NCBI GenBank assembly: GCA_020831775.1
Contig: JAFIFZ010000062.1
Span: 1-54,599, forward strand
Direction of reading: 5' to 3'
DNA length: 54,599 bases
From: Phycisphaerales bacterium
Lineage (GTDB): Bacteria > Planctomycetota > Phycisphaerae > Phycisphaerales > UBA1924
A model generated the notes under the pieces. That model was not told the DNA's origin and did no database searches. It saw only the letters and a list, made by a program, of their open reading frames with translations. The position numbers and the translations under genes were made by a program. Shown here piece after piece: positions 20,687 through 36,950 of the stretch (position 1 is its first letter; each line of letters begins with the position of its first letter).

Positions 20687-23391
20687 CAGCCGCCCCCCCC
20701 GCCGCTGCGGAAGGCGTCGAGGCGTCGGTCGAGCTCGCGCAATCGCTCGCCCCATGGTTCTGGGCCGAAGTTGGGGTGCAGGGCCTTGTGCTGGTCCATC
20801 ACGAGCGCCGCCCGCTCGGGCGAGGTGCGCATCAGCAGCCGGATCGACTCGTGGCGGGCCCGGAACCAGTCGGGCGAACTCGCGTCCAAGCCGGTCAGCA
20901 GTCTCCGCCATGCATCGAGCGCCCGCTCGTGCTCTTCGGCGGCTTCGGCGAGTTCAGCAAAGCGCAGCAGCATCGTCGCGCTCGCCCGGCCCGCGTCGAC
21001 CAGCCGTCCGTCGACCTCCAGTGCCGTGTCTCGCATCTGCTCATCGGCCCGCTTGCGCCAGAGGGTCGCGGCGACATCGGCCACGCGTGCCGAGATGGCG
21101 GCGAACTGTCGGTCGCCCGGCCCCCCGCCCTTGGACATCGAGATCGACAGCAGCCTCCGGCCGGACTCGACCGCCTCGCGCCCGGCCTGAAAGTCGCTCG
21201 AATCGCGCTGGAACCTCGCCAAAGCGTCCCGGAAGAGCAGACCTTCGGCGGCCTCGGCCAGCGGGTGGTCCCCCTGACGCAGGCGTCGGCCTGCCTCGCT
21301 CGCCGACTCGACATCCCCCTCCGCCAGCGCGATCTGCACCTCGCGGTACAGCAGCTCGTCGGCGAAGGGCGCTTTGTCGACGCCCGCGATCGAAACGATC
21401 TCGCGGAGCATCGTCAGCGATCGCCTCGCGCGGGCCGGGTCGGGGTTCTCCGCGGCGAGCATGGCGTCGAGCATCTGGCGCAGCACGATCGCGGCGCGGG
21501 TGCCGTGCTCGTTGAGGCCCGATCCGGTCGCGTCGCGCATCGCGCGGCGCTCGTGCTCGACAACGCCCTCGGCGATTTCGAGGAACCTCGACGCGGCGAA
21601 CTCGCGCTCGGCGCCCGAGCTGTCGCGGTACACCCGGTAGAGCAGGTTGGCGGCCTGACGCTCGGCGACGGGGCGCAGCGACGACGAACGATCGACCGCC
21701 AGCAGCGTCTCGACGGCGGTGATCGGGTCGGCCGAATCGCCCGCGGTGCGCCGGACGAGGAGGACCGCCGCGCGTTCGCGCCTGGGGTATTCGCCGATGT
21801 AGAGCGTCGCGAGTGTGCGCAAGCGTCGGTCGACGCCGGCGCCGGGCATCTCGGCCGCACGTTCCAGCGCGAGCACCGCGTTCCAGAGCGCTTCCTCGCG
21901 CAGGGGCTCGCCGGGCTCAGCGCGGAAGACCTGCTCGAACCGGTCGGCCGCCTGCAGGTACTCGCCCGCGCGGAAATACGCGAAGGCCAGACGCTGGCGG
22001 GCCGACATCGACTCGCGTTCGAAGTTTTCGGCGTCGTCGGTCGCCAGCGCACGCTCGAGCGCCCGCGCCGCGTCGCGGAAGGCGGTGCGTGTCGCGGCGC
22101 TCTCGATCGCTTCGTCGCCGGCGTCGGCGAGCTCTTCGGCCTCCTCGTACGCGCGCAGGCCCTCGACATACCGCGCGATGAACCCGTCGCCGATCACCGG
22201 CGTGCCCGCGTAGCGGTCGACGAGGTCGAGCACCTGCCCGATCTCGCCCATCGCGATCAGCTCGCCGATCCCGATCTCCGCGAGCTTGAGGATCAGCGTC
22301 GACAGGCGCGGGTCCGGCGCGTCGGCCTCCACCGCCTCGAGCGCCAGCACCGTCAGCAGCCTCGCCTCGCGGACGGAGAAGGGCGGCTTCGACTCGCGCG
22401 AGGCCGCGGCCAGCCGCTGATCGACAAGCTGCTCGACCCGCGCCCAGCGGGGACGCGTCGAGGCGAGAACGCTCAGCCTCCGCTCGAACATCGAGGCGCG
22501 GACCGACTCGGGCAGTTCCCTGTGGCGCTCGATCGTGTCCAGCCACGCGACGGCGTCGGCGTCGTCGCCTCTGACGGCGTACGCCAGCGCGACGCCGATC
22601 GCGGCCCTGGCGACCACTTCCCTTGCGAGCATGTCGCGCGAGAGGCGTTCGAGCGTCGGGATCCGCCCGTCGGGCGCGCCCAGCAGCCACCCGAATTCCT
22701 GCAGCGAAGCCGTCGCCGACTGCGAGCTCCCGAGGATCATCGCGAGGTAGTACTCGCTCCAGCCGGCGAAGAACCTCGCCTCCGAGTGGATCGCCGCGAT
22801 CTCGGTCCTGCGCTCGCGGATGTGCTCGACATCCTCGCCCCTGCCGCGCTGCTCAAGGCGGTCGAGCTGGTCGATGCGTCGCGACGCGGAAGACGCGATG
22901 GCCGCGAACCCCCGTCGGGCCTCGCGGAGCGAACGCACCGCCTCCTCCCGTTCCTGGTCGGTGGCGAGGCGGACGCGCCATCGCTCGGCGAGCTCTTCTG
23001 CCGCGAGGTAGCGGGTCCGCTCGATCATCACGCGGAGGGGATGGTGGTCCTGGTCGGGGATCTCGCGGAGGATTTCGTAGGAGGCCGCGAGAAGGCGCTC
23101 GCGCTCGTCGGCACTCGACGCCTCGCGCATCTGAATCGCATAGAGACGGCCGAGGCGTTCGGCGATCTCAGGCCGATCGCTCGCGGGCGCACGGTCGAGC
23201 CGGTCGCGGAGCTGGACGATCATCAGGTCTTCGATGCCCAGGCGCTCGAGGAATGACTCGACGCGGTCGTCGGGCGAGACGCGGACCGGCTCGACCTCGC
23301 GCTCCTGCGCAAAGCCGAACGGCGCAATCAGCAGCAGCGCCGCCAGCGGCGCGAGCCACGCGTGCGACCGGATGTCAGTCCGCGGGCACAT
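20686..23391 (-). CDS. Secreted TPR-like helical-repeat protein of the ExbBD operon
   Basis: A 901-residue exported protein. The signal peptide is about residues 1-29 (HAWLAPLAALLLIAPFGFAQ). The rest is alpha-helical with TPR-type repeats, for example ARQRLAFAYFRAGEYLQAAD, RFEQVF and similar pairs, and LRQMLDAMLAAENPDPARAR. No catalytic motif is seen. The ATG at 23391 lies inside the end of exbD, overlapping it by 17 bases, with AAGGTGA just before. Periplasmic TPR proteins often serve as docking platforms, for example TolA/Pal-associated YbgF (CpoB) in the Tol system, and a similar role beside ExbBD is reasonable. It may bind the vWA protein; no sequence shows this directly. Confidence 0.78.
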   Translation of the reverse strand: MCPRTDIRSHAWLAPLAALLLIAPFGFAQEREVEPVRVSPDDRVESFLERLGIEDLMIVQLRDRLDRAPASDRPEIAERLGRLYAIQMREASSADERERLLAASYEILREIPDQDHHPLRVMIERTRYLAAEELAERWRVRLATDQEREEAVRSLREARRGFAAIASSASRRIDQLDRLEQRGRGEDVEHIRERRTEIAAIHSEARFFAGWSEYYLAMILGSSQSATASLQEFGWLLGAPDGRIPTLERLSRDMLAREVVARAAIGVALAYAVRGDDADAVAWLDTIERHRELPESVRASMFERRLSVLASTRPRWARVEQLVDQRLAAASRESKPPFSVREARLLTVLALEAVEADAPDPRLSTLILKLAEIGIGELIAMGEIGQVLDLVDRYAGTPVIGDGFIARYVEGLRAYEEAEELADAGDEAIESAATRTAFRDAARALERALATDDAENFERESMSARQRLAFAYFRAGEYLQAADRFEQVFRAEPGEPLREEALWNAVLALERAAEMPGAGVDRRLRTLATLYIGEYPRRERAAVLLVRRTAGDSADPITAVETLLAVDRSSSLRPVAERQAANLLYRVYRDSSGAEREFAASRFLEIAEGVVEHERRAMRDATGSGLNEHGTRAAIVLRQMLDAMLAAENPDPARARRSLTMLREIVSIAGVDKAPFADELLYREVQIALAEGDVESASEAGRRLRQGDHPLAEAAEGLLFRDALARFQRDSSDFQAGREAVESGRRLLSISMSKGGGPGDRQFAAISARVADVAATLWRKRADEQMRDTALEVDGRLVDAGRASATMLLRFAELAEAAEEHERALDAWRRLLTGLDASSPDWFRARHESIRLLMRTSPERAALVMDQHKALHPNFGPEPWGERLRELDRRLDAFRSGGGGG

Positions 23392-23794
23392 AGCTCACCT
23401 TCGTAAAGCCCGCCCTCTTGCAGGCGCTCAGGGCCTTGGCCGCGGCGTCGACCGACGCCCGATCGGTCACCCGCACGAACACGCCTCCCTCCTTGGGAAG
23501 CGGCGTCAGCCATGCGACGATCGCTTCGGGGTCTTCAGAGGCCCGCTCGCCCAAACGGTAGAGCGTCCGACCGTTGTCGCGGTCGACGGTCACGATCATC
23601 GGCAACAGATCTGCTGCGCTCGACGGCCCCTCCGCCTCCGCCTGCAGCCCCGACGCCAGATCCTCCTCGGGCATGGTGAACGAGGCGGTGAGGATGAAGT
23701 AGATCAGCAGCAGGAAGACCACATCGATCATGCTGGTCATGTGGCGCTGCACGCCCTCCTCGTCGTCGTACTTGTGTTCACGGGTGAACTTCAA
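23375..23794 (-). CDS. ExbD/TolR family biopolymer transport protein (second copy)
   Basis: A 139-residue protein with a short cytoplasmic N-terminus, one membrane helix (SMIDVVFLLLIYFILTASF) carrying the proton-path Asp at residue 24, and a periplasmic ExbD/TolR domain of about 90 residues ending VSYVPAD. In ExbD and TolR this Asp sits inside the ExbB/TolQ pore and takes up protons. The start overlaps the first exbD by four bases (ATGA). Two different ExbD proteins beside one ExbB fits a mixed dimer in the pore, because ExbB pentamers hold two ExbD chains. Confidence 0.92.
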   Translation of the reverse strand: MKFTREHKYDDEEGVQRHMTSMIDVVFLLLIYFILTASFTMPEEDLASGLQAEAEGPSSAADLLPMIVTVDRDNGRTLYRLGERASEDPEAIVAWLTPLPKEGGVFVRVTDRASVDAAAKALSACKRAGFTKVSYVPAD

Positions 23795-24225
23795 GGCCCG
23801 CCCCCCGCCGGCGCCTCTGTCGCCAGCCTCCAGCCGCGGATCCCTAAAGCCGAGAGCGTCGAGGCGACGCGGTTGGCATGCGCCGCGTCCAGAGAACGAT
23901 CCGCGCGAACCAGCACCGTGACCTTCGAGGCGTCGCCCCCGGCCTGGTTGATCTCCGCCCGCACCACCGAGGCGAACCTCGCGAGATCGACGGGCTCACG
24001 CTCGATCAGCAGCGTTCCGTCGGGAGCGATGTCCAGCACGACCGTCGCCGGACGCTCGGCGCTCATCGGGTCGCCCCGCTCCTCGGGCAGGTCCAGGGGC
24101 GTGCGCACCAGCGTCGTGAACTGCGAGGTGTACAGAAAGAAGATGATGAGCTGGAAGACCACATCGATCATCGGGGTCATGTTGAACCCCCCGACCTTCC
24201 TGGGTTTCCGCTGGACGAAGTTCAC
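23791..24225 (-). CDS. ExbD/TolR family biopolymer transport protein (first copy)
   Basis: A 144-residue protein. The membrane helix follows the classic GGFNMTPMIDVVFQLIIFFL, with the conserved Asp at residue 21. The periplasmic part has the VTVLVRADRSL strand typical of ExbD. The start is GTG at 24225, giving MNFVQRKPRK and a four-base GTGA overlap with exbB. The family needs this short basic N-terminus, so the longer frame upstream is ruled out. It is closer to the ExbD consensus than the second copy. Confidence 0.93.
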   Translation of the reverse strand: MNFVQRKPRKVGGFNMTPMIDVVFQLIIFFLYTSQFTTLVRTPLDLPEERGDPMSAERPATVVLDIAPDGTLLIEREPVDLARFASVVRAEINQAGGDASKVTVLVRADRSLDAAHANRVASTLSALGIRGWRLATEAPAGGGP

Positions 24226-24956
24226 CGCGGCGCGCCCCTCTGCGGCGCCTGCGCAGGCGGCGTGCCCGGCCTCGGCTTGCGGGCCGCGTTCTGGTCCAGG
24301 TGCTGGGCGAGCTCCTCGGTCACCTCGGCGACCTTGGACGCCAGCGTGTCGATCCGCCCGCGGAGGTAGGCGTACGCCGCGGTGCACGGGATGGCGACCA
24401 GCAGCCCCATCACGGTGGTCATCAGGGCCGTGGAGATGCTGCCCGCGAGGCGGTCGGGCTTGGCGACGCCCTCAGCAGCGCTGAGCGTGTCGAACGCCCC
24501 GACCATGCCGACGACCGTGCCGAGCAGCCCCAGCATCGGCGCGATCGAGGCGACCACGCCGATGGTGTCGTTGGATCGCTGCAGGCGGGAGACCTCCATC
24601 TGCCCCGACTCCTCCAACGCTCCCTTGAGCTCAAGAAAGCCGAACGGCGAGCGGGCGCACCGCGTCAGCGCCGAACGGAACACCCGCGAGAGGAACGACT
24701 CGTTGTCGGGCTGAGAGCAGAACTCGATCGCGCCCTTCACATCCCCTTTCCGGAGCCTGGCGTCCAGCCCGAGCACGAAGTCGCGCGGCGCCATCCGCTC
24801 CATCCGCACCCTGATCAGCTGCGCCACGATCAGCCCCACGGCAAAGAGCGACAGCGCGATGATCACATACCCGATCCCCCCGCCGCTCTGGATGTACTCC
24901 AGCAGCGTCTTGCCCCCCTCCGCGTCGGTGTTCGCCGCGATCAGCATCCGGTTCAT
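24222..24956 (-). CDS. MotA/TolQ/ExbB family proton channel protein
   Basis: This 244-residue protein is the pore-forming stator unit of an ion-driven complex. The first helix is near residues 29-50 (YVIIALSLFAVGLIVAQL), followed by a cytoplasmic loop of about 90 residues. The second and third helices are in SIAPMLGLLGTVVGMV and STALMTTVMGLLVAIPC, which hold the signature residues of TolQ and ExbB. The cytoplasmic tail is helical and ends in a Pro/Arg-rich stretch. The ATG at 24956 shares one base with the preceding stop; a TTG one codon earlier is also possible. Proton motive force is the expected energy source, with both ExbD genes directly after it. Confidence 0.93.
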   Translation of the reverse strand: MNRMLIAANTDAEGGKTLLEYIQSGGGIGYVIIALSLFAVGLIVAQLIRVRMERMAPRDFVLGLDARLRKGDVKGAIEFCSQPDNESFLSRVFRSALTRCARSPFGFLELKGALEESGQMEVSRLQRSNDTIGVVASIAPMLGLLGTVVGMVGAFDTLSAAEGVAKPDRLAGSISTALMTTVMGLLVAIPCTAAYAYLRGRIDTLASKVAEVTEELAQHLDQNAARKPRPGTPPAQAPQRGAPR

Positions 24957-26176
24957 CAATGTTCCTGTCCGCCCCCGGCGCGGGGGCTGTTCATCGTCAC
25001 GCCACGGATCGGCCCGTTGCCGCCCGGGGCATCATCGCCCGCGGGGTGGCCCGGGTACCTCCTGCGGAGCTCGGCCCGCAAGAGACCCGCGGTCTCGCCC
25101 CGCCCCAGTTCGTCCATCGCCTCGGCCGCCTCGGCCAGGCAGAGCCCCGCGAGGAACGGCTGCTCATCGGCGAACCTCGCCGGCAGGTGCAGCATCGTCA
25201 CCACGCCCCGAAGACGCTCCGCCTCGTCGTTCTCACGCACGAGCGAGCGCCCGATAGCCGCGTAGATCCACGCCTCCAGCCACGCGGGCGTCTGCGCCCG
25301 CCCGGCGCGCGATCGATCCAGCCTCTGGCGGAGGCGATCTCTGTTCTCGGAGCGCTCGACGCTCGTCCCGTGCTGGGCGAGCACCAACTCGGCGATCAGC
25401 CGCACGCTCGGATCGTCGCTGCTGCTCGGCCGGTCTTGCCGCTCGCCGACGGTCGCCGCCGCGGCATAGCGGTACCAAGCGCCAAGCAGCGCCGCCCGCT
25501 CGTCGGTCGGTTCGACGCCCGAGGGCAGGCTGATCCCCCGTTCTGCGAGCTGGCGGACGCCGGTCGTCTCCGTCCAGATCGGCGGGATCGCCGGGCAGAG
25601 CCCCGTCTCGGGGTCGACCACCGCCGGCACGCCCTCGAACACCGGGCGCCCCCCGCCACCCGCCTGCAGCAGCATCAGCCAGGGCCCGATCGCCGACGCG
25701 TGCGCCCCCCGACGCAGCCTGCAACGCAGCGCCCCTTCCGCCACGGCCTGCGCCGTCGGCCCCAGCCGCCCGGCGTACACGCCAAACAACTCCTCGAACC
25801 CGGCCTCGGCGAGCACGAAATCGCCCCGCTCCAGCCGCTGGCGCGAGCGCCACGCCTTCTCGGCCAGCTCAAGAAACTCAGCAGCCTTCTCGGCGCCCGG
25901 CCCGCTCATGCGGACAACGCGGTCCCAGCCGATCTCGACCGTCGCCCCAACTACACGCAGAGACAGCGCCTCGAACGAAGCCTCTTCGACCTTGCCCAAG
26001 AGCGGCTCGACCCGACCGAGCAGACGCACCTCGGCCCGATCGAGATCCGAAGCCTTCGCGACGCCCGCCTCTTCCCGAGGCTCGGCGCCGAGCACGCCCG
26101 CGCCCGCCGACAGCACAAGGCCGCACAGACCCGCCGCCACCGCCCGCTCTAAGAAACGCTGCGAGGGCCGCTTCAA
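24956..26176 (-). CDS. Secreted protein of unknown function, second gene of the ExbBD-vWA operon
   Basis: I do not recognise the family. It has 406 residues with a signal peptide (AVAAGLCGLVLSAGAGVLGAEP). Residues about 45-90 (LLGRVEPLLGKVEEASFEAL, then VVGATVEIGWDRVVRMSG) look like a small beta domain seen at the start of many planctomycete secreted proteins. The rest is helical and repeat-like (AWRSRQRLERGDFVLAEAGF, LCLAEAAEAMDELGRGETAG), resembling TPR or Sel1-type packing. The C-terminus is Gly/Pro-rich. The start overlaps the vWA gene by four bases (ATGA) and its stop shares one base with exbB. Its place between vWA and ExbB suggests a periplasmic part of the same complex. Confidence 0.72.
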   Translation of the reverse strand: MKRPSQRFLERAVAAGLCGLVLSAGAGVLGAEPREEAGVAKASDLDRAEVRLLGRVEPLLGKVEEASFEALSLRVVGATVEIGWDRVVRMSGPGAEKAAEFLELAEKAWRSRQRLERGDFVLAEAGFEELFGVYAGRLGPTAQAVAEGALRCRLRRGAHASAIGPWLMLLQAGGGGRPVFEGVPAVVDPETGLCPAIPPIWTETTGVRQLAERGISLPSGVEPTDERAALLGAWYRYAAAATVGERQDRPSSSDDPSVRLIAELVLAQHGTSVERSENRDRLRQRLDRSRAGRAQTPAWLEAWIYAAIGRSLVRENDEAERLRGVVTMLHLPARFADEQPFLAGLCLAEAAEAMDELGRGETAGLLRAELRRRYPGHPAGDDAPGGNGPIRGVTMNSPRAGGGQEH

Positions 26177-27225
26177 GGCCCACCCCCGCCCGCGGAACGG
26201 TCCAGCGGCACATAGGTGTAAGTCCCGCCCGACATCTCCGCGATCCGGCGCATCATCGCCTCGCCCGAGCGGTCCTCGAAGCAGATCGCGTGCACCGGCA
26301 CCGTCGGTCTTCGGTTCTGGGCGATGATCGCGTCCGCCTCCGCCTCCGCGAAGATGCCGTCGGTCATGAAGTAGATCGCGTCGGGCCTCGGACTCAGCGT
26401 GAAGATGATCTCAAAGCCCGTCAGCGGGTTGGTGCCCCCGTAGACCTGGATGGTGTCGATCGCCCGCTCCGCCCACCGCTTGCCGGACCTGTCGGCCCGG
26501 AGCCAGCGTGTCCTGCCGCCCAGCACGTTCGCCTCGTGGCTGAACGGGACGATGATGAACTCCGCCCGCTCGTCCAGCGCGTCGACGGATTCCTTGAGCG
26601 CACGCCGCAGCGCCTCGATCCTCGGGCCCATCATCGAGCCGGAGATATCCACGAGGAACACAAACCGGCGCCCCTTCGCCTCGACGCCCAGGAAACTCGC
26701 GGCCCCTTCGCCCGCGCCCCCAACATCGAACCCCCCGACCCCCTCGGTCCCGCCCCCCGAGCCGCTCTGGCTCAGCGTCGCAAGGTCCGCCAGGTCCGAA
26801 GCGAGGTCCATGCCCGCCGGATCGTCGAGCGCCGGGATTTCCGCGGCGTCCGCCTGTTCTGAAATCTCGACGCTCGGCTCGGCCAGCGAGAGCGCCTCAG
26901 CCTCAATCGCGTCGAGCTCGGACTGGCTCATCACCGCCAGCTCGAAGACCTGCTCGCCCGGCGCCCCCCCGATCTGGCCCGACGGCTGCTGGATCGCGAT
27001 CAGCGCCGCGATCAGCATGAGCACGATGTGCAGCACGATCGTCGCGATCGCACCGACCACCGACGCCCGCTTGAGGTAACGGATCGCCCGCTCCTTAAAG
27101 TCCTCGGGTGGAACAGCAGCCACCGCGCCGGCGGTATGTGCCGACGGGCGAGGGGCCGGTTGCTGGACCGGTTCGTTGGCCGCCGCATCCTGCGGCGATC
27201 CGGATTGTCGCGTAAGGTTGGCCAT
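26173..27225 (-). CDS. Membrane-anchored von Willebrand factor A domain protein, first gene of the ExbBD operon
   Basis: A 350-residue protein laid out like TonB or TolA: a Pro/Gln-rich cytoplasmic N-terminus (VQQPAPRPSAHT), one membrane helix at about 54-78 (VVGAIATIVLHIVLMLIAAL), a linker with acidic and Gly-rich parts, then a vWA domain (about 186-345). The metal site (MIDAS) is complete: DISGS at 193-197, Thr265 in GGTNP and Asp289 in MTDG. It should bind Mg2+ and a protein ligand outside the cytoplasm. I chose the ATG at 27225; a GTG 21 bases upstream (27246) is possible. It heads an eight-gene operon and is divergent from pyrH, with 145 bases between them. It is the likely moving or ligand-binding part driven by ExbBD. 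Confidence 0.82.
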   Translation of the reverse strand: MANLTRQSGSPQDAAANEPVQQPAPRPSAHTAGAVAAVPPEDFKERAIRYLKRASVVGAIATIVLHIVLMLIAALIAIQQPSGQIGGAPGEQVFELAVMSQSELDAIEAEALSLAEPSVEISEQADAAEIPALDDPAGMDLASDLADLATLSQSGSGGGTEGVGGFDVGGAGEGAASFLGVEAKGRRFVFLVDISGSMMGPRIEALRRALKESVDALDERAEFIIVPFSHEANVLGGRTRWLRADRSGKRWAERAIDTIQVYGGTNPLTGFEIIFTLSPRPDAIYFMTDGIFAEAEADAIIAQNRRPTVPVHAICFEDRSGEAMMRRIAEMSGGTYTYVPLDRSAGGGGP

Positions 27226-27370
27226 GCCTGTGGGGCCGGACGGCACGCCCTGTCCGTTCGGTCAGTCTATGGGTTAGACAGCCATCGCGACCGAAAGTTC
27301 CCGAACCCGAGCACTTCCGCCCCGCCCTGTCGCGGGCCCGCCTCCCCAAGCCCCCCAAGGACCACACTCC

Positions 27371-28144
27371 ATGTCCGACGCCCAGCCCGCTCAGGATCCC
27401 GAAAATCGGCCGTTCAAGCGGGTTCTCCTGAAACTCTCCGGCGAGGCGTTCTGCAAGGCGCCTGGCTTCGGCGTCGATCCGGACGAGCTCGAACTCATCG
27501 CCGGCGAGATCAAGGAAGCCGCGACCCAGGGCGTCCAGGTCGCTGTGGTCGTCGGCGGGGGCAACATCATCCGGGGGGCGGAGCTGGCCAAGTCCGGCGA
27601 TGTCGCCCAGGCGACCGCCGACTACATGGGCATGCTCGGGACGGTCATCAACGCCCTTGCCCTCCGCGAGGCCCTGACGAACATCGGGATCGACAGCCGC
27701 GTGATGTCGGCGATCGAGGTCCGGGCCGTCGCCGAGCCGTTCATCCGGGCCCGGGCCATCCGCCACCTGGAAAAAGGGCGCGTGGTCATCCTCGCCGCCG
27801 GCACCGGCAACCCCTTCTTCACCACCGACACCTGCGCCGCACTCCGCGCCCGCGAGCTGGACTGCGATGTGCTGCTCAAGGCGACCAAGGTCGACGGCGT
27901 CTATTCCGCCGACCCCAAGCTCGACCCGACCGCCGAACGCTACGACCGCCTGACCTTCGCCGACGCGATGGCCAAGAACCTTCGCGTGATGGACATGACC
28001 GCCCTGGCGATGTGCCAGGAGCAGGCGATCCCCGTCGTCATCTTCGAGTTCAAGAAGCCCGGCAACATCCGGCGCATGGTCGGCGGCGAGCGCCTCGGCA
28101 CGCTCGTCTATAACGCCGACCGCCCGCCGGTGGGGATCTCCTGA
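27371..28144 (+). CDS. pyrH: Uridylate kinase (UMP kinase) PyrH
   Basis: PyrH uses ATP to turn UMP into UDP in pyrimidine synthesis. The protein has 257 residues, about 15 more than usual because of the N-terminal MSDAQPAQDPENRPF. Key motifs are LLKLSGEAF, VVGGGNIIRG, DYMGMLGTVINALAL, GTGNPFFTTDT and KATKVDGVYSADP. These form the bacterial hexameric amino-acid-kinase fold, not the eukaryotic type. It lies 87 bases before frr on the same strand, the usual pairing in the tsf-pyrH-frr order, although tsf and rpsB are not present here. Confidence 0.97.
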   Translation: MSDAQPAQDPENRPFKRVLLKLSGEAFCKAPGFGVDPDELELIAGEIKEAATQGVQVAVVVGGGNIIRGAELAKSGDVAQATADYMGMLGTVINALALREALTNIGIDSRVMSAIEVRAVAEPFIRARAIRHLEKGRVVILAAGTGNPFFTTDTCAALRARELDCDVLLKATKVDGVYSADPKLDPTAERYDRLTFADAMAKNLRVMDMTALAMCQEQAIPVVIFEFKKPGNIRRMVGGERLGTLVYNADRPPVGIS

Positions 28145-28231
28145 CCGGCCGGCGATTCGCGCTTCGCCGCACACACAACGCATATGATCGCGACCGGGCC
28201 GCAGAGGGCCCGCACGCTTAGGAGCAGAGCC

Positions 28232-28804
28232 ATGAGCACCGACCCGGACACCATCCTCCTCGAGACCGAAGAGGGCATGAGCAAGGCCGTCGAGCACCTC
28301 CGCGACGAGCTCAGAGGCATGCGCACAGGCAGGGCCTCGACCGCGCTGGTCGAGTATGTCAAGGTCGACTACTACGGCTCGATGACCGAGCTCAAGGCGC
28401 TCGCCGCCATCAGCGTCCCCGAGCCCTCGCAGATCCTGATCAAGCCCTTCGACGCCGGCTCGGTCGGCGCGATCCGCCAGGCCTTGGAGAACAGCGACCT
28501 GGGCCTGAATCCGGTCGTCGAGGCCAAGCAGGTCCGCCTGAACATCCCCGCCCTCTCCAGCGACCGGCGCAAGCAGCTCGCCGCCCACTGCAAGAAAGTC
28601 GGCGAGCAGCAGAAGGTCGTCGTCCGCAACCTGCGCCGCGACGCCAACAAGCACGCCGACGCGCTGACCAAGTCCGACACCAACCCGGTCTCCGAGGACG
28701 AGGTCAAGACCCTCAAGGACGAGATCCAGGAACTGGTCAAGAAGTACGAGGCCGAGATCGAAACGCTCGTCGACGCCAAGACCAAGGAAGTCATGGAGAT
28801 CTGA
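28232..28804 (+). CDS. frr: Ribosome-recycling factor
   Basis: RRF splits post-termination ribosomes together with EF-G. The 190 residues cover the full two-domain protein: AVEHLRDELRGMRTGRAS near the start, VPEPSQILIKPFD in the small domain, LNIPALSSDRRKQLA, and the last long helix (LKDEIQELVKKYEAEIETL). The ATG at 28232 follows taggagcagagcc, a clear ribosome site, and removes a longer open frame. Likely cotranscribed with pyrH. Confidence 0.97.
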   Translation: MSTDPDTILLETEEGMSKAVEHLRDELRGMRTGRASTALVEYVKVDYYGSMTELKALAAISVPEPSQILIKPFDAGSVGAIRQALENSDLGLNPVVEAKQVRLNIPALSSDRRKQLAAHCKKVGEQQKVVVRNLRRDANKHADALTKSDTNPVSEDEVKTLKDEIQELVKKYEAEIETLVDAKTKEVMEI

Positions 28805-28813
28805 GGGGGGCGT

Positions 28814-28836
28814 CTTCGCCGGCCTCCGCCGGTGCT
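28814..28836. repeat. Dispersed GCCGGCCTCCGCCGG element (repeat family B)
   Basis: The core gccggcctccgccggtgc occurs right after frr. Four related copies stand together at 51926-52025 after pgk. The core can form a 5-bp stem (ccggc with gccgg) and four-base loop. All five copies lie in gaps at the 3' ends of genes, in convergent settings, like a small REP element or weak terminator. Confidence 0.7.
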
Positions 28837-28903
28837 GGCAAAAGATCGCCGCGGCCGAATCTATGCTCAGCCAGGAAGAAGCAGCACGCGTTCAAACACC
28901 GCT

Positions 28904-29212
28904 TCACCCTCCCGCCCGAATCTCAAGGCCATCAACGACGAGACGGCGCCAGCGCCAGAACCCCGCGAGGTCGATCGTCACGACGCCTTCGCTCTGAGCG
29001 CCTTCGCCTTCCACGCCTTCATCAAGATACACATCCACGCCGTCCACGCGCTCCCGCCGATGCCCGCGTTCATCCTCGGGCGCGCCCGGCTCGGCGAGCG
29101 GGACCATCGCGGTCGCGCCGCAGCACCCGTGCCTGGTCGAGAGCCGGAGCATCACCGCCCCGCCGTGGTCGACGATCCACCGCCTCGCGTCCGGTGTGAT
29201 GCGGATCTTCAC
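28904..29212 (-). CDS. CC-motif small protein (resembles the CC/Se motif family), coupled to ACR3
   Basis: A 102-residue soluble protein. It begins like a HesB/IscA fold (MKIRITPDARRWIVDHGG), then carries a vicinal pair Cys30-Cys31 in STRHGCCG, and ends GFWRWRRLVVDGL. From memory this fits the group named CC/Se motif proteins, in which some members have selenocysteine at the pair. Here both are ordinary TGC/TGT-type cysteines, with no in-frame stop. Vicinal thiols bind arsenite tightly, and the gene overlaps the arsenite permease stop by four bases (ATGA), so a role as arsenite handler or sensor for the pump is attractive. That is inference; no ArsR, ArsC or ArsA gene is nearby. Confidence 0.7.
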   Translation of the reverse strand: MKIRITPDARRWIVDHGGAVMLRLSTRHGCCGATAMVPLAEPGAPEDERGHRRERVDGVDVYLDEGVEGEGAQSEGVVTIDLAGFWRWRRLVVDGLEIRAGG

Positions 29213-30333
29213 TGGTCAGCTCCCGGGTCCCCGCCGGCGGGTTCCGGTTCCGCGCCGGTCTCAGCCGCGTCGAAACGGTGGCGCGTCCGGTTGGCGATCT
29301 TCACCAGCGCCAGCATCACTGGCACCTCGACGAGGACGCCCACCACCGTCGCCAAGGCCGCGCCCGAGTGCAGGCCGAAGAGCGCGATCGCCGCCGCGAC
29401 CGCAAGCTCGAAGAAGTTGCTCGCGCCGATCATCGCCCCGGGCGCCGCGATGTTGTGCGGCACACGCCACGCCTTCGCCCACCAGTACGCGATGAAGAAG
29501 ATCAGGAAGGTCTGGATCGTCAGCGGCACCGCAATCAGCAGGATGTGCAGCGGGTTGTTGACGATCCTGTCGCCCTGGAAGGCGAACAGCAAGACGAGCG
29601 TCACGATCAGCGCCGCGGGCGTCACGCGACCGATCCGCTTCATGAACACGCCGTCGAACCACTCGATCCCCTTCCGCCGGATCAACGCCACGCGGGTCAG
29701 GTAGCCGGCGACGAGCGGGATCACGATGTAGAGGAATACAGAGAGCGCGACCGTGTCCCACGGCACCGCGATGTCTGAGAGGCCCAGCAGCAGGATCACG
29801 ATCGGCGCAAAGGCAAAGAGCATGATCAGGTCGTTCAGCGAGACCTGCACCAGCGTGTACGCCGCGTCGCCCCGGGTCAGGTAGCTCCAGACGAAGACCA
29901 TCGCCGTGCACGGCGCTGCGCCGAGCAAAATCGCCCCGGCCAGATACTCCCGCCCAAGGTCCTCGGGGATCAGGGGCGAGAAGACCACCAGCAGAAAGAA
30001 CCACGCGATCGCGAACATCGTGAACGGCTTGATCAGCCAGTTCACTGTCGTCGTGATGATCAGGCCCTTGGGCTGCCGCCTGATGCCCAGCACCGACGCG
30101 AAGTCGATCTGGACCATCATCGGGAAGATCATCGCCCAGATCAGCACCGCGACGGGGATCGAGACCTGCGCGTACTCGAACCTCGACAGCGTCTCGGGCA
30201 CCACAGGCAGAAACCGCCCCAGCGCAATGCCGGCCACGATCGCCAGCGCCACCCAAACGGTCAGAAACCGCCCGAAGAGGTCCATGCCCTCGCTCGGATC
30301 GGGCGGGTCCGCCATCGGCGGGCGTTCTGCCAT
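29209..30333 (-). CDS. ACR3 family arsenite efflux permease
   Basis: A 374-residue, ten-helix membrane protein of the ACR3 (Arsenical Resistance-3) family, which exports arsenite using the proton gradient. The essential Cys is at residue 142 in GAAPCTAMVFVWS, and the family stretches FPMMVQIDF, LNDLIMLFAFAPIV and MIGASNFFELAVA are present. The N-terminus (MAERPPMADPPDPSEG) is a few residues longer than usual but has ggagacgcaccg before the ATG at 30333, which supports it. No arsR repressor or arsC reductase lies beside it; the coupled CC-motif gene follows. The C-terminal tail is Glu/Pro/Gly-rich. Confidence 0.93.
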   Translation of the reverse strand: MAERPPMADPPDPSEGMDLFGRFLTVWVALAIVAGIALGRFLPVVPETLSRFEYAQVSIPVAVLIWAMIFPMMVQIDFASVLGIRRQPKGLIITTTVNWLIKPFTMFAIAWFFLLVVFSPLIPEDLGREYLAGAILLGAAPCTAMVFVWSYLTRGDAAYTLVQVSLNDLIMLFAFAPIVILLLGLSDIAVPWDTVALSVFLYIVIPLVAGYLTRVALIRRKGIEWFDGVFMKRIGRVTPAALIVTLVLLFAFQGDRIVNNPLHILLIAVPLTIQTFLIFFIAYWWAKAWRVPHNIAAPGAMIGASNFFELAVAAAIALFGLHSGAALATVVGVLVEVPVMLALVKIANRTRHRFDAAETGAEPEPAGGDPGADQ

Positions 30334-30503
30334 CGGTGCGTCTCCAGCGGAAAAAACGGACGCAGGACTCCCGGCGGCATCGGCGACAACCGCCTGCGCA
30401 CGGGCCGCGACTATACGGATCGCCGTCCGACCGACACCGGCGACTCCTCAGAACGAGTGTTGCACGCACGCCGGCCGGATCGCCTCGTCACCACATGAAA
30501 ACA

Positions 30504-30530
30504 CGGGGCGCGGCCCTCGGCCGCGCCCCG
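30504..30530 (-). terminator. Intrinsic terminator of sppA
   Basis: A perfect 12-bp stem, cggggcgcggcc (30504-30515) with ggccgcgccccg (30519-30530), and a three-base loop. On the minus strand it is followed by tgttttcatg, a short T run. It lies 71 bases past the sppA stop and 171 before the ACR3 start, in the same direction, so it separates these two units. Confidence 0.75.
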
Positions 30531-30600
30531 CTCTCGATCTGCCCGTGCGTCTCCGCCCCGGGCGAATGTTCACGCGATCTTTACAAACCTCGCGATCGGC

Positions 30601-32379
30601 TCACCTGATGATGATCGCCCGCGGCAGGACCACGAGCACCGGCTCGTTGCGGACCTGCACCATCGCCTCGAGCTGGTCGCGGATCGTGTTCCACGCCGCA
30701 TCGCCGACGACGCCCTTGATCAGCGAGACGAACTCGCCCCCGGCGCCGACCTGCGGGGCCGTGATCCCGAACGCGCCGCCGAACATCTCCGACAGCGGCT
30801 TGGGGCCGGGGAAGTGCATCACATCGAAGCGGTCCCTGTCCCAGCCGAGCTCCGAAGCGAGGTCGCCCACCGCGTCGTCGAGCCCGCCGATCCGGTCGGC
30901 CATGCGCAGCGCCACCGCGCGGTCGCCGGTGAACAGGCGCCCCTCGCCGACGCGACGCATGTTGATCCCGTCGCGCCCCTCACGCACGCGGCTGGCGAAC
31001 AGGTCGTAGGTCTCGGTCATCCGCTGGCGGACGAGTTCCTCCTGCGCCCCGGTCCAAGGCTCGACCGAGCTCATCAGATCGGCCATCGGCCCGCGCGAAC
31101 GCGGGTACACGCGAACCTTCAGCTTGTCGTACACCCCGCCGAGCGTCATCTTCCCGCCGACCACGCCGATCGAGCCGAGGATGCTCGACTCGTTGGTGTA
31201 GATGCGGTCGCCGCCCACGGCGATGTAGTACCCGCCCGAGGCGGCCATGCTCCCGATGCTCACCCAGACGGGCTTCTCCTCAGAAACACGCTTGAGCCCG
31301 CGCCAGATCACCTCGCTGGCGATCGCAGAGCCGCCGGGCGAGTTGATGCGGATGATCACCCCGCCGACCTTGTCGTCGTTGCGGAGGTCTTCGAGCACAT
31401 TGCGGATGGTGCGGCTGCCGGTGGTCGCGCCGCCGAACAGCCCGCCGGGCGAGGACTCGCCGTCCATGATCGGGCCGTCGATGTGCACGATCGCGATCGT
31501 CTCACGCGTGGGCGTGTGCTTGGGGTCCTGCGAGAGCATCCGGAAGATCGCAAACGGGTTGCTCGTGTCCATCCGCGAGCGTGTGCGCGAGCGCGTCGGG
31601 CGGTCGGTCCAGCTCACCTCGCCGCCCAGAGTCGCTTCCAGGTGCGAAGCGAGCTCGGCGAGGTCGACCTCAGAATCGAGCAGGCCGACGGCGATCGCCT
31701 TGTCCGCGTCTGCGAACCAGGCGACCTTCATCGCCTCGTCGAGCTGCGGGTCGTTCAGCCCGCGCCCGGCCTTGACTACATCGCGGATGTTCGAGTACAT
31801 GCTGTCGAGCAGCTGCGAGATGTTCTCTTCCCAGGCGGGGCTGGGCTCGGTGTTCATGAACTGCTCGTCGGCGCCCTTGTAATCGCCCACCTGGATGAAC
31901 TGGGCCTTCACGCCCAGCCAGCTCAGCGTGTCGGCGAGGTACATCTCCTCCATGTACAGCCCGGGGAAGGAGACCGCCCCGCCCGCCTGGATGATCGCCC
32001 GATCGGCGTGGCTGGCCAGCAGCAGTTCCCCCGTGCCGTAGTTCTCGGCGAAGAGGAAGACCTTCTTGCCCGACTCGCGAACCGCGTTCATCGCGACGCC
32101 GAGCTCCTCGATCTGCGTCATCGAGAGCGCCGCGTCGCGCAGACGCACCACGACCGCGTTCAGCGACTCGTCGTCGCGGGCGCGGTGCAGCATCGTCAGG
32201 TAGTCGCCCAGCGTCTTGGGGGCTTCCGTCGCCAGCCAGTCGAACGGGCCCGGACGCTCCTGGGGAGCGCCACGCATCTCGATCATCGCGACCTCGAAGC
32301 GGTCGGCCAGCGCCGTCGACGCGGCCGTCGCCAACGCCACACCGGCGCACGCGAGGGTCATTGCTGCGGATTTGAACAT
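30601..32379 (-). CDS. sppA: Signal peptide peptidase SppA, long form
   Basis: SppA digests cleaved signal peptides in or near the membrane, using a Ser-Lys dyad. The protein has 592 residues, the duplicated long form as in E. coli. Lys168 in VGDYKGADEQF from the first half and Ser381 in SMAASGGYY from the second half match the dyad positions. INSPGGSAIASEVIWRGL is the ClpP-like turn. The N-terminus is a signal peptide ending about residue 25 (STALAD), where E. coli has a membrane anchor, so this one may be periplasmic. aggagatctcaacg precedes the ATG at 32379. A strong terminator follows. Substrate preference cannot be read from sequence. Confidence 0.93.
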   Translation of the reverse strand: MFKSAAMTLACAGVALATAASTALADRFEVAMIEMRGAPQERPGPFDWLATEAPKTLGDYLTMLHRARDDESLNAVVVRLRDAALSMTQIEELGVAMNAVRESGKKVFLFAENYGTGELLLASHADRAIIQAGGAVSFPGLYMEEMYLADTLSWLGVKAQFIQVGDYKGADEQFMNTEPSPAWEENISQLLDSMYSNIRDVVKAGRGLNDPQLDEAMKVAWFADADKAIAVGLLDSEVDLAELASHLEATLGGEVSWTDRPTRSRTRSRMDTSNPFAIFRMLSQDPKHTPTRETIAIVHIDGPIMDGESSPGGLFGGATTGSRTIRNVLEDLRNDDKVGGVIIRINSPGGSAIASEVIWRGLKRVSEEKPVWVSIGSMAASGGYYIAVGGDRIYTNESSILGSIGVVGGKMTLGGVYDKLKVRVYPRSRGPMADLMSSVEPWTGAQEELVRQRMTETYDLFASRVREGRDGINMRRVGEGRLFTGDRAVALRMADRIGGLDDAVGDLASELGWDRDRFDVMHFPGPKPLSEMFGGAFGITAPQVGAGGEFVSLIKGVVGDAAWNTIRDQLEAMVQVRNEPVLVVLPRAIIIR

Positions 32380-32560
32380 CGTTGAGATCTCCTCGGGAAC
32401 CTGCGGGGACCGGGGGTCCGATCCCGCCGCGTCTCCACCGATGGCTTTCGGAAACAGTCCGGCCCCGTTTCATCGGCCCCGCTCTCGCAGCGAGGCCCCG
32501 CGATCGCGGGCGAACAGACGCACCAACCAGGGCGCCAATCAGGGCAAGACCGACCGGAAT

Positions 32561-32983
32561 TCAGTCGTACCCGAGGCCTTCGAGGTCCTCCTCGTCGAGC
32601 CCCATCTGGTGCCCGATCTCGTGCAGGAGGGTGACCCGGATTTCCTCGTAGAGTTCATCGACCGCCGAAGCGTCCCGCTCCAGCCGGCGCCACCCCCCCA
32701 CATGCTCGATCAGCCCCCGCCTGAAGATGTGGATCTGGCTGGGAAGCTCCCCGGAATGCGTGATAGAACGGTCGGTGATCGCGATCCCCGAGTGCAGCCC
32801 GAAGAGCGACGCCCCCGCCCCCGGCTCGGCGGGATCCATCCCCACCGACTTGAGGATCTCCGGCGTCGGCTCGTCGAGCACGACCAGCGGCGTCTCGTCG
32901 AGCACCGCGAGCACCCCCTCGGGCAGTTCGCCGACCGCCTCGTCGACCAGCGCGTCGAACCACGCCCGCTGTTCTTCCGTCAC
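32561..32983 (-). CDS. Small zinicin-like metallopeptidase
   Basis: A 140-residue, single-domain protein of the minimal metallopeptidase (TTHA0227-like) group. The C-terminal LLHEIGHQMGLDEEDL gives HExxHxxGxxxxD with ligands His121 and His125, Glu122 as base and Asp130 as the probable third ligand. An upstream stretch IHIFRRGL is a usual strand of this fold. No signal peptide or membrane helix is seen, so it is cytoplasmic. The start is GTG at 32983, overlapping the upstream stop by four bases (GTGA). Its partner gene encodes a zinc-ribbon membrane protein. The family's cellular substrates are largely unknown. Confidence 0.88.
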   Translation of the reverse strand: MTEEQRAWFDALVDEAVGELPEGVLAVLDETPLVVLDEPTPEILKSVGMDPAEPGAGASLFGLHSGIAITDRSITHSGELPSQIHIFRRGLIEHVGGWRRLERDASAVDELYEEIRVTLLHEIGHQMGLDEEDLEGLGYD

Positions 32984-33987
32984 TGACCGAGCCCTCCTGC
33001 TCCCTGTGGGGCCGAGCGGCCCTCGCTGGCGGATCGCTCCGGAACCGATTCGTCAACCAGCATCTTCGAGGGCTCCAGCCGCGGCTGAAGGATGACCGGG
33101 GCGATCCGCAGGCAGTCGCGGAAGACGCCCCACAGCCCGATCGTAAACAGCACCGCCCCCAGCCCGGTGAGAATCATGTCGGCGTAAAAGACTGTGTCCA
33201 GCATCCACCCGCCCATCGCGATGGCGACGAGCCCGAGGAGCGCTCCGAGCCAGATCAGCGCCATCGCCCCGGCCATGGGCAGCATCGACTGACGCTCCGC
33301 CCCCCCGCTGCGGAGCACCTGCGACCGGCGGGCCAGCACCTTGGCGTTGGGCCTGAACAGAAAGACGATCGCGACAACCATCGTCGCCCCGATCAGCCGC
33401 AGCGTGAGCAGGCCGGGATCCAGCGTCGAGCCCTTCAGAAACGAGGCCGGGCTGAGCGCCTGAGTCTCTGCGTCCAGCAGCCGGACGCCGACCAGCGCCG
33501 CCATCAGGGCCGTGCCACCCGCGGCCATCAGCCGGTCGCGCCGAGGAATCCCCGCGTGCGGGGCGATCAGGGCGATCGAGCCGAGGGCCGAGAGGGCGAT
33601 CGCCGCCAGCGTCGCAGGCCCCAGCCAGACCGGCGGCAGACGCCCGACCTCCATCATCGCGACCGTCTCGATCCAGAAGCGGTTGAACCACATGAGCAGC
33701 GCGGCGACGATCGCCGCGGCAGGCCAGAGCACCAGACCGATCGCCACCAGACGCCGACGCCGGATCGGCGAGATCACGCCCGCGGCGGGGTCGACCGCGT
33801 TGAGCACGGTGGCGAGGACGGAAGTGCCGCACTCGGGGCAGGCGGACCGCACACTGAGTGACCGAAGGTTGTAGCCACAGCGGATGCACGCGAGATCCCC
33901 CGCCAGCTTTCTGGCGATCCGCTCGCTCTGCGCGACGGGGTCAGCGCCTGTCGGAGGGTTCGGATTTGGGACTTGTTGGTGGCTCAT
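32980..33987 (-). CDS. Zinc-ribbon multi-span membrane protein
   Basis: A 335-residue protein with a cytoplasmic N-terminus holding CIRCGYNLRSL and CPEC, a zinc ribbon of four cysteines that heads many planctomycete membrane proteins. It is followed by about seven hydrophobic helices (for example VAIGLVLWPAAAIVAALLMW, and LIWLGALLGLVAIAMGGWML) and a polar C-tail. No known transporter or enzyme motif is visible. The gene is coupled to the metallopeptidase after it (GTGA) and divergent from moxR, with 116 bases between. The function is unknown; the pairing suggests the peptidase acts on or with this membrane protein. Confidence 0.78.
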   Translation of the reverse strand: MSHQQVPNPNPPTGADPVAQSERIARKLAGDLACIRCGYNLRSLSVRSACPECGTSVLATVLNAVDPAAGVISPIRRRRLVAIGLVLWPAAAIVAALLMWFNRFWIETVAMMEVGRLPPVWLGPATLAAIALSALGSIALIAPHAGIPRRDRLMAAGGTALMAALVGVRLLDAETQALSPASFLKGSTLDPGLLTLRLIGATMVVAIVFLFRPNAKVLARRSQVLRSGGAERQSMLPMAGAMALIWLGALLGLVAIAMGGWMLDTVFYADMILTGLGAVLFTIGLWGVFRDCLRIAPVILQPRLEPSKMLVDESVPERSASEGRSAPQGAGGLGQ

Positions 33988-34103
33988 GTAGGGAACAAAC
34001 TCGGTGGCCCTGAGGTCTCACAACGCCCCCTCGGCCGGTGGCAGCGTACCTCAAGATGCGGGATCGTTGGCCGCTAAACTCCGAACCCACGCCAGGAGAC
34101 ACG

Positions 34104-35030
34104 ATGCAGGACAAGATCCAGGAACTCAGGGAGAACATCACCAAAGTCTTTCTGGGCAACGAGGGGGCTGTCGACCGGCTGATCTGCTGCCTGCTCTCCC
34201 GGGGCCACGCGCTGATCGAGGATGTGCCGGGCGTCGGAAAAACGGTCCTGGCGACGGCTTTGGCCCGGAGCATCGACTGCGCGTTCACCCGGATCCAGCT
34301 CACGCCGGATCTTCTGCCCGGCGATGTGCTGGGCGTGAGCGTGCTGGACAAGGCGACGGGCGACTTTGTCCTCAAGCGGGGCCCCATCTTCACCAACATC
34401 CTGCTGGCCGACGAGATCAACCGGACCACGCCCCGGACGCAGACGGCACTCCTGGAGGCGATGAGCGAGCAGCAGGTCTCTGTCGACGGGCGGGTGATCC
34501 CACTGGAGCCGCCCTTCATGGTCCTGGCGACCCAGAACCCCTACGAGTTCGAGGGGACCTACCTGCTCCCCGAAAACCAGCTCGACCGGTTCCTGATGCG
34601 GATCGAACTGGGGTATCCCTCCGCCGAGGACGAGCTGCGCGTGCTGGAGATCCGCCCCGCCCAGCGGGTGCTGGCCGAGCTCAAGCCGGTGCTCAAACGC
34701 GACGAGGTCATCGAGCTGCAGAACCTGGTCGACGCGGTGAAGGTCGACCGGGCGATCCTCGACTACATCGTCCGCATCGCCGACGCGACGCGGAACCACC
34801 CTTCGATCCGCGTCGGCCTGAGCCCGCGCGGGTCGCTCGCTCTGGCGCAGGCGTCGCGGGCGACGGCGATGATCCACGATCGCGACTATGTCATCCCCGA
34901 GGATGTGCTGGAAAACCTGACCGACATCGCGGCCCACCGCCTGATCTTCACCTCCGGCGGGCACCCCGACGCCGAGGAGGCCAAAGCGCTCTTGGACTCG
35001 ATCGCCGCGGGCGTCGGCAGCCCCGCCTGA
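34104..35030 (+). CDS. MoxR family AAA+ ATPase
   Basis: A 308-residue MoxR-type AAA+ protein, which usually acts as a chaperone to fit cofactors or activate vWA-domain partners. Walker A is DVPGVGKTVLA (Lys46), Walker B ILLADEINR (Asp103, Glu104), sensor 1 lies in VLATQNPYEFEGTY, and the lid has VGLSPRGSLAL. aggagacacg precedes the ATG at 34104. The usual following genes (DUF58, transglutaminase, vWA) are missing; a CDGSH gene comes 24 bases later. The window does hold a vWA gene about 7 kb away, but there is no direct link. Confidence 0.93.
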   Translation: MQDKIQELRENITKVFLGNEGAVDRLICCLLSRGHALIEDVPGVGKTVLATALARSIDCAFTRIQLTPDLLPGDVLGVSVLDKATGDFVLKRGPIFTNILLADEINRTTPRTQTALLEAMSEQQVSVDGRVIPLEPPFMVLATQNPYEFEGTYLLPENQLDRFLMRIELGYPSAEDELRVLEIRPAQRVLAELKPVLKRDEVIELQNLVDAVKVDRAILDYIVRIADATRNHPSIRVGLSPRGSLALAQASRATAMIHDRDYVIPEDVLENLTDIAAHRLIFTSGGHPDAEEAKALLDSIAAGVGSPA

Positions 35031-35054
35031 GCATCAACACAGAGGAGGCCGCAG

Positions 35055-35261
35055 ATGGCCAGACTGATCCGACAGCACCGCGACGGGCCCATCAAGATCG
35101 AGCCGCAGGACAAGCCGGTCTGGATCTGCGGGTGCGGGCTGACAAAGGAGTTCCCGTTCTGCGACGGGAGCCACAAGGCCTGCAGCAAGGAAGAGCCGGG
35201 CAAGCTGTATGTGTACGACGACGAGGGCAACATCGTCGAGGAGCGCAAGGACGGGGACTGA
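35055..35261 (+). CDS. CDGSH iron-sulphur domain protein
   Basis: A 68-residue protein containing the full CDGSH motif: Cys25, Cys27, Thr30, Pro34, Cys36 and His40 in CGCGLTKEFPFCDGSH. This binds a redox-active 2Fe-2S cluster through three cysteines and one histidine. It is a single-motif bacterial type with no membrane anchor. gaggaggccgcag precedes the ATG. It lies 24 bases after moxR, so the two are probably cotranscribed. A role in redox or iron sensing is typical; the specific one is unknown. Confidence 0.92.
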   Translation: MARLIRQHRDGPIKIEPQDKPVWICGCGLTKEFPFCDGSHKACSKEEPGKLYVYDDEGNIVEERKDGD

Positions 35262-35270
35262 CCCCGCCCT

Positions 35271-35969
35271 TCAGCGCCCCTCTGGCAGCGAGCCGGCGGA
35301 GGCCTGCGTCTGGTTGGCCTCGGCCTCTGCGCCCGGGGTTTCCTGCGAGGCGGGCCATTCGAGCCTGATCCGCACATCAAAGAGCCCGAGGAAGGCCTTG
35401 AGCTGGCGTTCGATGCTGCGGACCGCCTCGGCGTGGTAGCGGGATTCGTTCTGCTGGAAGAGCTGGGCGGCCTGCTCCTGAGCGCGCACCATCAGCCGCT
35501 TCTGCGTCGGGGCGTTGACCTGGATGACATCGAGCAGCCCGAGCACGCGCCCGTCCTGGATGTCGTAGGGCGAGACATCGATCAGCCGGAGCGAGCCCTC
35601 CACAGGCGGGAGCGTCAGGACGAACTCGGTCTCGCCGACCTGCTCGACATCGGCCGCCTGCACGCGGGTCAGGTCGATCCAGTACTGCTTCTCAAAGTGG
35701 AAGATCATCGCGACGCGGGCCTGGCTGAGGAGCAGCGGCGGGAGCCAGCTCAGCCCCTTGGTCGCGGTGGCGATCTCCTTGGCGGAGACCTCCAGGCCGA
35801 TCAGCTTGCCGACGGCTCGCATGTGCTCGGCGATCGCGTCGACGCGGGATTTCTCGGGGACGAACGGCTCGCCGCGTTTGCGGGTGAGCATCCGCCAGAG
35901 GATCAGCCCCGCGATCGCCGCGACGAGCACGCCGAGCAGCAGGAGCAGGATGTTGATCAGTGTTTCCAA
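35271..35969 (-). CDS. DUF4230-like single-span membrane protein
   Basis: A 232-residue protein with one N-terminal membrane helix (LLLLLGVLVAAIAGLILW), then a region that looks like DUF4230: FHFEKQYWIDLTRVQAADV, a beta segment (FVLTLPPVEGSLRLIDVSP), then helices (QKRLMVRAQEQAAQLFQQN) and a strand (LFDVRIRLEW). The start is TTG at 35969, supported by GGAGG six bases before it; no ATG fits before the membrane helix ends. It runs tail to tail with the CDGSH gene, nine bases apart. The family has no well-defined function. Confidence 0.72.
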   Translation of the reverse strand: METLINILLLLLGVLVAAIAGLILWRMLTRKRGEPFVPEKSRVDAIAEHMRAVGKLIGLEVSAKEIATATKGLSWLPPLLLSQARVAMIFHFEKQYWIDLTRVQAADVEQVGETEFVLTLPPVEGSLRLIDVSPYDIQDGRVLGLLDVIQVNAPTQKRLMVRAQEQAAQLFQQNESRYHAEAVRSIERQLKAFLGLFDVRIRLEWPASQETPGAEAEANQTQASAGSLPEGR

Positions 35970-36914: not shown

Positions 36915-36950
36915 GGAGCGCGGGCGGGACAAGCCAGAGGATTCGCAGCT

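Follow-up and report, generated by a model that had tools for sequence, protein, structure and literature searches.

Results

An ACR3 gene overlaps the gene of a small vicinal-cysteine protein

The window, by which we mean the whole 54,599-nucleotide stretch of Phycisphaerales DNA that was analysed, carries on its reverse strand a gene for a 374-residue ACR3 arsenite efflux transporter (29,209–30,333), followed on the same strand by a gene for a 102-residue protein of the CC/Se-motif family, here called the CC protein, which begins with GTG (28,904–29,212). The transporter matched PF01758 and scored 398.4 bits against TIGR00832 (acr3), exceeding the equivalog cut-off of 282.8 bits, and by profile score it is an ACR3 arsenite pump. 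The small protein scored 110.8 bits against NF041239 (cut-off 40) and covered positions 1–91 of the 91 in that profile. Its adjacent residues Cys30 and Cys31, encoded at 29,120–29,125 (reverse strand), lie in the motif R-x-S-x-R-H-G-C-C-G. A first-pass annotation had described an ACR3 gene overlapping that of a vicinal-cysteine protein, and with both family cut-offs passed this description holds.

The ACR3 stop codon and the CC start codon share four bases (29,209–29,212, reverse strand). The overlap had been annotated as ATGA, but reads GTGA because the CC gene starts with GTG; its length of four bases is unchanged, and such an arrangement suggests translational coupling. The sequence GGGAG (29,220–29,224, reverse strand), 7 nt before the GTG start, is a possible ribosome-binding site. 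As annotated, no arsR or arsC lies near the pump, since none was found among the eight window open reading frames scanned, nor by tblastn in 20,905–37,212; arsA was likewise absent from the eight reading frames. A terminator-like hairpin of 13 pairs lies between sppA and ACR3 (30,503–30,531, reverse strand), which is a weak sign (two such sites found, 1.1 expected by chance), and frr lies convergently behind the gene pair; together these suggest that ACR3-CC may be its own transcription unit. Elsewhere in the window, a small CDGSH iron-binding protein of 68 residues is encoded at 35,055–35,261 on the forward strand.

The CC gene is conserved and under purifying selection

NF041239 is named "CC/Se motif family (seleno)protein" (Moor_selen_rel). 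The excerpt of a 2026 review that deals with the family describes it solely as hypothetical, a protein predicted for Moorella, and gives no function; the annotated existence of selenocysteine forms is there in print (PMC13188914).

We compared 53 loci, comprising 51 found through the CC gene, the window as the starting point, and one locus of the window's family (L112) that was identified by way of its ACR3 gene. All 53 CC proteins have cysteine, never selenocysteine, and all contain GCCG. In the alignment, which took in 43 of the 53 sequences, Cys30 and Cys31 were invariant, together with A9, R23, S25, R27, G29, G32, A40, P45, L91 and G95. The dN/dS ratio was below 1 in all 12 orthologue pairs from three lineages (0.08–0.68; the pairs partly share sequences). 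The CC gene is a real gene under purifying selection, its coding status being beyond chance.

Relatives outside the family were sought in several ways. Four CC proteins scanned against Pfam matched no family at E ≤ 1, while NCBIfam returned only NF041239 at E ≤ 0.01 and no match to an ArsD profile, on the assumption that an ArsD model is in the libraries. A PDB sequence search with the CC protein gave nothing convincing, and no relative was confirmed in the viral contigs scanned. Among plasmids, tblastn yielded one true relative, on a 1.8 Mb replicon of Halomonas sp. PA16-9, where the CC gene lies behind ACR3; the pumps of PA16-9 and the window are 79% identical and the small proteins 32% identical. 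A match on a Rhizobium plasmid was dropped, as it fell inside a long reading frame that by eye resembles a dehydrogenase.

The CC gene lies next to ACR3 in three bacterial groups

ACR3 was present in all 51 loci found through the CC gene. The two genes were adjacent (overlapping or less than 80 nt apart) in 34 of them; in 16, other genes separated CC from an upstream ACR3 of the same orientation (0.4–7 kb), and in one (L015) ACR3 was on the opposite strand. The four-base overlap recurs in Phycisphaerales and Thioalkalivibrio, a 3-nt gap is found in many Halomonas, and at one locus (L058) the ACR3 and CC matches themselves overlap by 60 nt. The pairs of the window and of L112 are also adjacent; neither informs enrichment, given how these two loci were obtained. 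A motif scan of genome contigs contributed 41 loci (36 from Halomonadaceae, three from Ectothiorhodospiraceae, two of these Thioalkalivibrio, and two from Phycisphaerales), and nine stretches from genome searches were added to the loci measured. The 36 Halomonadaceae loci are related and do not amount to 36 independent cases; the scan motif was built on Halomonas and window proteins, so that the loci lean towards Halomonadaceae and may leave out lineages whose motif differs. The CC gene thus co-localises with ACR3 in three unrelated bacterial groups. The named carriers (Halomonadaceae, Thioalkalivibrio and uncultured relatives) are mostly halophilic or alkaliphilic, and soda lakes are presumably what some of the sample codes denote; this tendency is a pattern, not a test.

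We then turned to family-model searches of two genome samples, which are independent of the motif bias; both samples include their centre, the Thioalkalivibrio genome G407, which had been picked as a carrier. Three of 398 Pseudomonadota genomes carried the CC gene and 228 carried ACR3 above cut-off, and the distance between CC and an ACR3 match in the three carriers was 54 nt, 812 nt and 1139 nt. In the order to which G407 belongs, represented by 47 genomes that are related to one another, ten carried CC and 14 carried ACR3 above cut-off (p = 1.9e-7), with all ten CC genes 54–57 nt from ACR3, measured between matched stretches. Leaving out G407, carriers numbered 2 of 397 in the phylum and 9 of 46 in the order (order p = 6.5e-7), and the chance of both phylum carriers lying within 2 kb of ACR3 was 1.8e-6. 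Mere presence of the two genes was not associated in Pseudomonadota (p = 0.26; 0.51 without G407), because ACR3 is common; the evidence lies in position. Enrichment with arsenic genes was one of the two checks on which the first-pass annotation had staked its reading, and the CC gene indeed sits beside ACR3 far above chance. These results leave the arsenic link of the CC protein well supported. In Planctomycetota, the window's genome was the sole carrier among 392 sampled genomes and among the 198 of an overlapping draw; three related loci (L042, L044, L112) also carry the gene.

Further arsenic, stress and redox genes surround the pair

Further ars genes occurred in at least 40 of the 53 loci, mostly in Halomonadaceae and the like-placed L065. 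All neighbour counts are lower bounds, because locus lengths differ and the arsR-like gene of a Thioalkalivibrio locus (L041) was missed in them; against its family model this gene scores 54.1 bits (cut-off 55). On this basis ArsH was found in at least 30 of the 53 loci, ArsJ in at least 26 and an ArsE-type thioredoxin in at least 23; for ArsC-like genes, two low-molecular-weight queries each matched at least 29 loci and a glutaredoxin-type query at least 10, and for ArsR-like genes two queries each matched at least 11. An FMN reductase was present in at least 23 loci, and a universal stress protein gene (usp) in at least 18, lying directly behind CC in 16. Outside Halomonadaceae and L065, tblastn detected a further ars gene in three of 15 loci (L040, L061, L062). 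Curated models confirmed single representatives of ArsH, ArsJ, glutaredoxin-type ArsC, ArsE-type thioredoxin and ArsR, whereas the low-molecular-weight ArsC representative scored below its cut-offs. The first-pass annotation had raised selenite as another possible substrate; among the neighbours identified at the CC loci, which were arsenic genes, nothing pointed to it.

Two arrangements recur within the Halomonas group. An ArsE-type thioredoxin gene lies directly before CC in six loci, at 7.6–8.3 kb (L011, L012, L014, L015, L017, L022; TIGR00412 for L011). A permease gene is also present in these six loci; the representative of its family bears a weak resemblance, under the cut-offs, to SaoE/SO_0444. 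In five others (L006, L007, L009, L010, L019) an FMN reductase gene directly precedes CC (PF03358 for L007), the order being arsH, acr3, FMN reductase, CC; arsJ and gapdh lie nearby in convergent orientation, and pst-like genes were recognised by eye. The ACR3 gene of one of them, from Vreelandella maris (L006), has a single in-frame TGA near position 7,025, reflecting either disruption of the gene or an error in sequencing. In L041 an arsR-like gene is followed by ACR3, CC, usp and hemerythrin. A VOC protein encoded divergently from ACR3-CC-usp in the same locus (5,704–6,465) is weakly like ArsI/CadI (49.7 bits, cut-off 116).

The window's pump falls in the ACR3 clade here called type B

The window's ACR3 was the only ACR3 match in its own genome. 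An arsR-arsC-arsM cluster lies on another contig (L147, contig C18, 3,505–5,219) with no ACR3 beside it, its ArsC scoring under its cut-offs. Two relatives (L119, L120) have arsR-arsC-ACR3-arsM, as judged by eye, and a third (L121) has an arsM-like gene before ACR3. The pumps of these three relatives (34–39% identical) fall in another clade of our ACR3 tree, here called type A as opposed to the window's type B; the tree comprises 76 rows (69 different, the rest duplicates), excludes rows of 250 residues or fewer (L013), and has long branches and unsettled bootstrap values. No CC gene was found around type-A ACR3 in the stretches of all 11 such tree genomes (that of L149 is short), nor around six type-B ACR3 genes of the tree in the stretches examined. 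Given an arsR-arsC-arsM cluster without ACR3 here and type-A ACR3 in the relatives, the CC-linked pump may have replaced an older one.

In the sister genomes L042 and L044, usp starts 4 nt after CC. Relative to L042, where usp is whole, about 800 bases have been deleted at window positions 28,811–28,899, and usp behind CC is lost apart from an 18-base remnant of the gene start (28,882–28,899, reverse strand). With usp deleted and ACR3-CC kept, the pair persists without usp. At another locus (L115, genome G846) type-B ACR3 is followed directly by usp with no CC between, so that CC must have either entered such an ACR3-usp pair or dropped out of it.

The CC protein is predicted to adopt an A-type carrier fold

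Two AlphaFold2 models, computed from differently led alignments of the same family, had mean pLDDT values of 83.9 and 85.6, with lower confidence at residues 21–40, which hold the cysteine pair. The best Foldseek matches of both were SufA and IscA (SufA E = 3.9e-4 and 2.5e-4; TM about 0.5–0.6). A second structure comparison with the first model gave IscA at Z = 8.9 and ten rows of A-type or related proteins at 5.6 or above (YneR among them, counted for its presumed kinship to A-type proteins), the next, unrelated row standing at 2.6. Since models without a clear match often reach 7–8, we place weight on the uniformity of this match list and not on the Z value. Profile comparison with seven A-type carriers gave a probability of 93.6% (E = 2e-7, 66 columns) and paired Cys31 of the CC protein with Cys35 of the carriers.

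A-type carriers are defined by three conserved cysteines, one internal and two in a CxC near the C-terminus. This CxC had no counterpart in the 43 aligned CC proteins. The seven carriers had been taken from 20 matches in these genomes by a cysteine pattern requiring the C-terminal cysteines, so they cannot prove the three-cysteine rule. Separate PF01521 genes were present in all ten genomes checked, including the window's. We therefore assign the CC protein a predicted IscA/SufA (A-type carrier) fold, and do not class it as an iron-sulfur carrier because the two C-terminal cysteines are missing. The predicted IscA-type fold, together with the lack of an ArsD match, agrees with the annotated view that the protein is unlike ArsD.

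Discussion

The probable place of the CC gene in published arsenic operons

Two published arsenic gene clusters resemble the loci described here. In the excerpts of the report on Halomonas sp. GFAJ-1, arsH1-acr3-2-arsH2 is counted as a three-gene operon, and arsH1-acr3-2 confers resistance on E. coli AW3110 without the genes behind (PMC5930303). As described there, the GFAJ-1 island shares with our five Halomonas-group loci the order arsH, acr3, FMN reductase, as well as arsJ, gapdh and pst-like genes. In those five loci CC is likely the fourth gene of a GFAJ-1-like operon, GFAJ-1 itself being compared by description only. For Thioalkalivibrio jannaschii ALM2, the excerpted account reports that 5 mM arsenite induces an ars cluster in which ACR3 and uspA are accompanied by two hypothetical proteins, and a figure legend covering the three strains drawn also names hemerythrin (PMC6620896). 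ACR3 and usp are common to this cluster and L041, and the ALM2 hypothetical proteins are unnamed in that account. By analogy with L041, one of the two is probably the CC protein, and the CC gene would then probably be arsenite-induced in T. jannaschii.

ArsD offers the closest functional parallel: it is a small protein with vicinal cysteines in an ars setting that carries As(III) to the ArsA ATPase. The introduction of the Thioalkalivibrio paper likewise gives it as an As(III) chaperone (PMC6620896). The CC protein shares with ArsD its small size, vicinal cysteines and ars setting, and the carrier role proposed below; it differs in having no ArsD profile match and ACR3 as its constant neighbour. 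With the A-type carriers IscA, SufA and HesB-like proteins (PF01521) it shares the predicted fold, a cysteine pair at the Cys35 site and a remote profile match, but it lacks the two C-terminal cysteines and a Pfam match, and is encoded near an arsenite pump. To NF041239 the window protein is a full-length match with the cysteine pair, here tied to ACR3 by position.

A proposed vicinal-thiol accessory of an arsenite pump

We give roughly even chances to the reading in which the pumps of one ACR3 clade have the CC protein as a vicinal-thiol accessory that binds arsenite and buffers or delivers it. Overlapping or near-abutting genes in three lineages suggest that synthesis of the protein is often coordinated with that of the pump. 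As(III) would most likely be bound through the two thiols of Cys30 and Cys31, and the protein may then buffer or carry it, presenting it to the cytosolic side of ACR3. ArsH, FMN reductase, ArsE-type thioredoxin and the universal stress protein would be optional neighbours in such a scheme. Judged from its sequence and setting, the CC protein probably binds arsenite and helps the pump. The narrower proposal, of an arsenite chaperone dedicated to a secondary pump, in which an A-type fold has turned from iron-sulfur clusters to arsenic, we advance only tentatively. As(III) sites often have three thiols, and the CC protein has only two conserved. That 225 of the 228 ACR3-bearing Pseudomonadota genomes lack CC, together with the E. 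coli result for GFAJ-1 genes, argues against a strict requirement, and ACR3 evidently does not depend on the CC protein everywhere. We found no published tie of NF041239, or of an IscA-type protein, to ACR3 in the open-licence literature searched.

The main rival, rather unlikely in our judgement, makes the CC protein a thiol-redox protein of arsenic metabolism, whose cysteine pair cycles between dithiol and disulfide (selenenylsulfide in selenocysteine forms). It would reduce As(V), thioarsenates or organoarsenicals, and its partner would be ArsE-type thioredoxin, ArsH or FMN reductase. The thioredoxin genes directly before CC in six Halomonas-group loci and the FMN reductase genes in five are what this reading would expect, and selenocysteine, where it occurs, is usually catalytic. 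Adjacent cysteines, however, give strained disulfides that form less readily than those of CxxC motifs; the most constant partner is an As(III) pump and not a reductase, and each low-molecular-weight ArsC query already matched 29 of the 53 loci, the representative scoring under its cut-offs. The literature points both ways: excerpts record selenocysteine forms in the family (PMC13188914) and a GFAJ-1 without a working arsenate reductase, whereas the GFAJ-1 genes that gave E. coli its As(V) resistance lie upstream of where CC would be expected (PMC5930303). The thioredoxin and flavoprotein neighbours, along with the selenocysteine forms, keep a redox role in contention.

Alternatively, the CC protein could be an As(III) sensor or modulator, which gates ACR3 or tunes ars expression rather than carrying As(III). 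A vicinal-thiol site and translation together with the pump would suit such a role, and among the fold matches is DsrR, which presumably lacks cluster ligands. We consider it distinctly unlikely, as neither the family scans nor the model revealed a DNA-binding domain and the usual place of the gene is on the 3' side of the pump; separate ArsR-like genes are moreover present in 11 of the 53 loci by each of two queries, in L041 and elsewhere in the window's genome.

That the protein is an iron-sulfur or iron carrier of A-type, serving arsenite-damaged proteins, seems more improbable still: the predicted IscA/SufA fold and the A-type profile match speak for it, but the C-terminal CxC has no counterpart in the aligned CC proteins, the four scanned had no Pfam match at E ≤ 1, and the ten genomes checked have separate PF01521 genes. 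A hitch-hiker without arsenic function, as the rarity of the gene might suggest (one of 392 Planctomycetota genomes, the window's own, and three of 398 Pseudomonadota, one being the chosen centre), is very hard to credit for a gene that is kept near ACR3 in three lineages under purifying selection, even after the loss of usp in the window.

Implications

The arsenic link found here for an orphan (seleno)protein family is consistent and real, and the fold that comes with it was not expected; arsenite chaperoning is a plausible, still unproven reading. Our analysis offers a testable function for a family that has none in print. It also supplies a gene that was probably overlooked in ars operons already being studied, perhaps that of GFAJ-1 among them. 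If the CC protein does carry arsenite to ACR3, then a fold hitherto associated with iron-sulfur work provides the helper of a widespread pump, and the view of how arsenite reaches secondary carriers would change. If it is a chaperone, Halomonas, Thioalkalivibrio and some Phycisphaerales would have an unrecognised extra ars-operon gene, and the selenocysteine relatives would become candidate selenium-based arsenite carriers.
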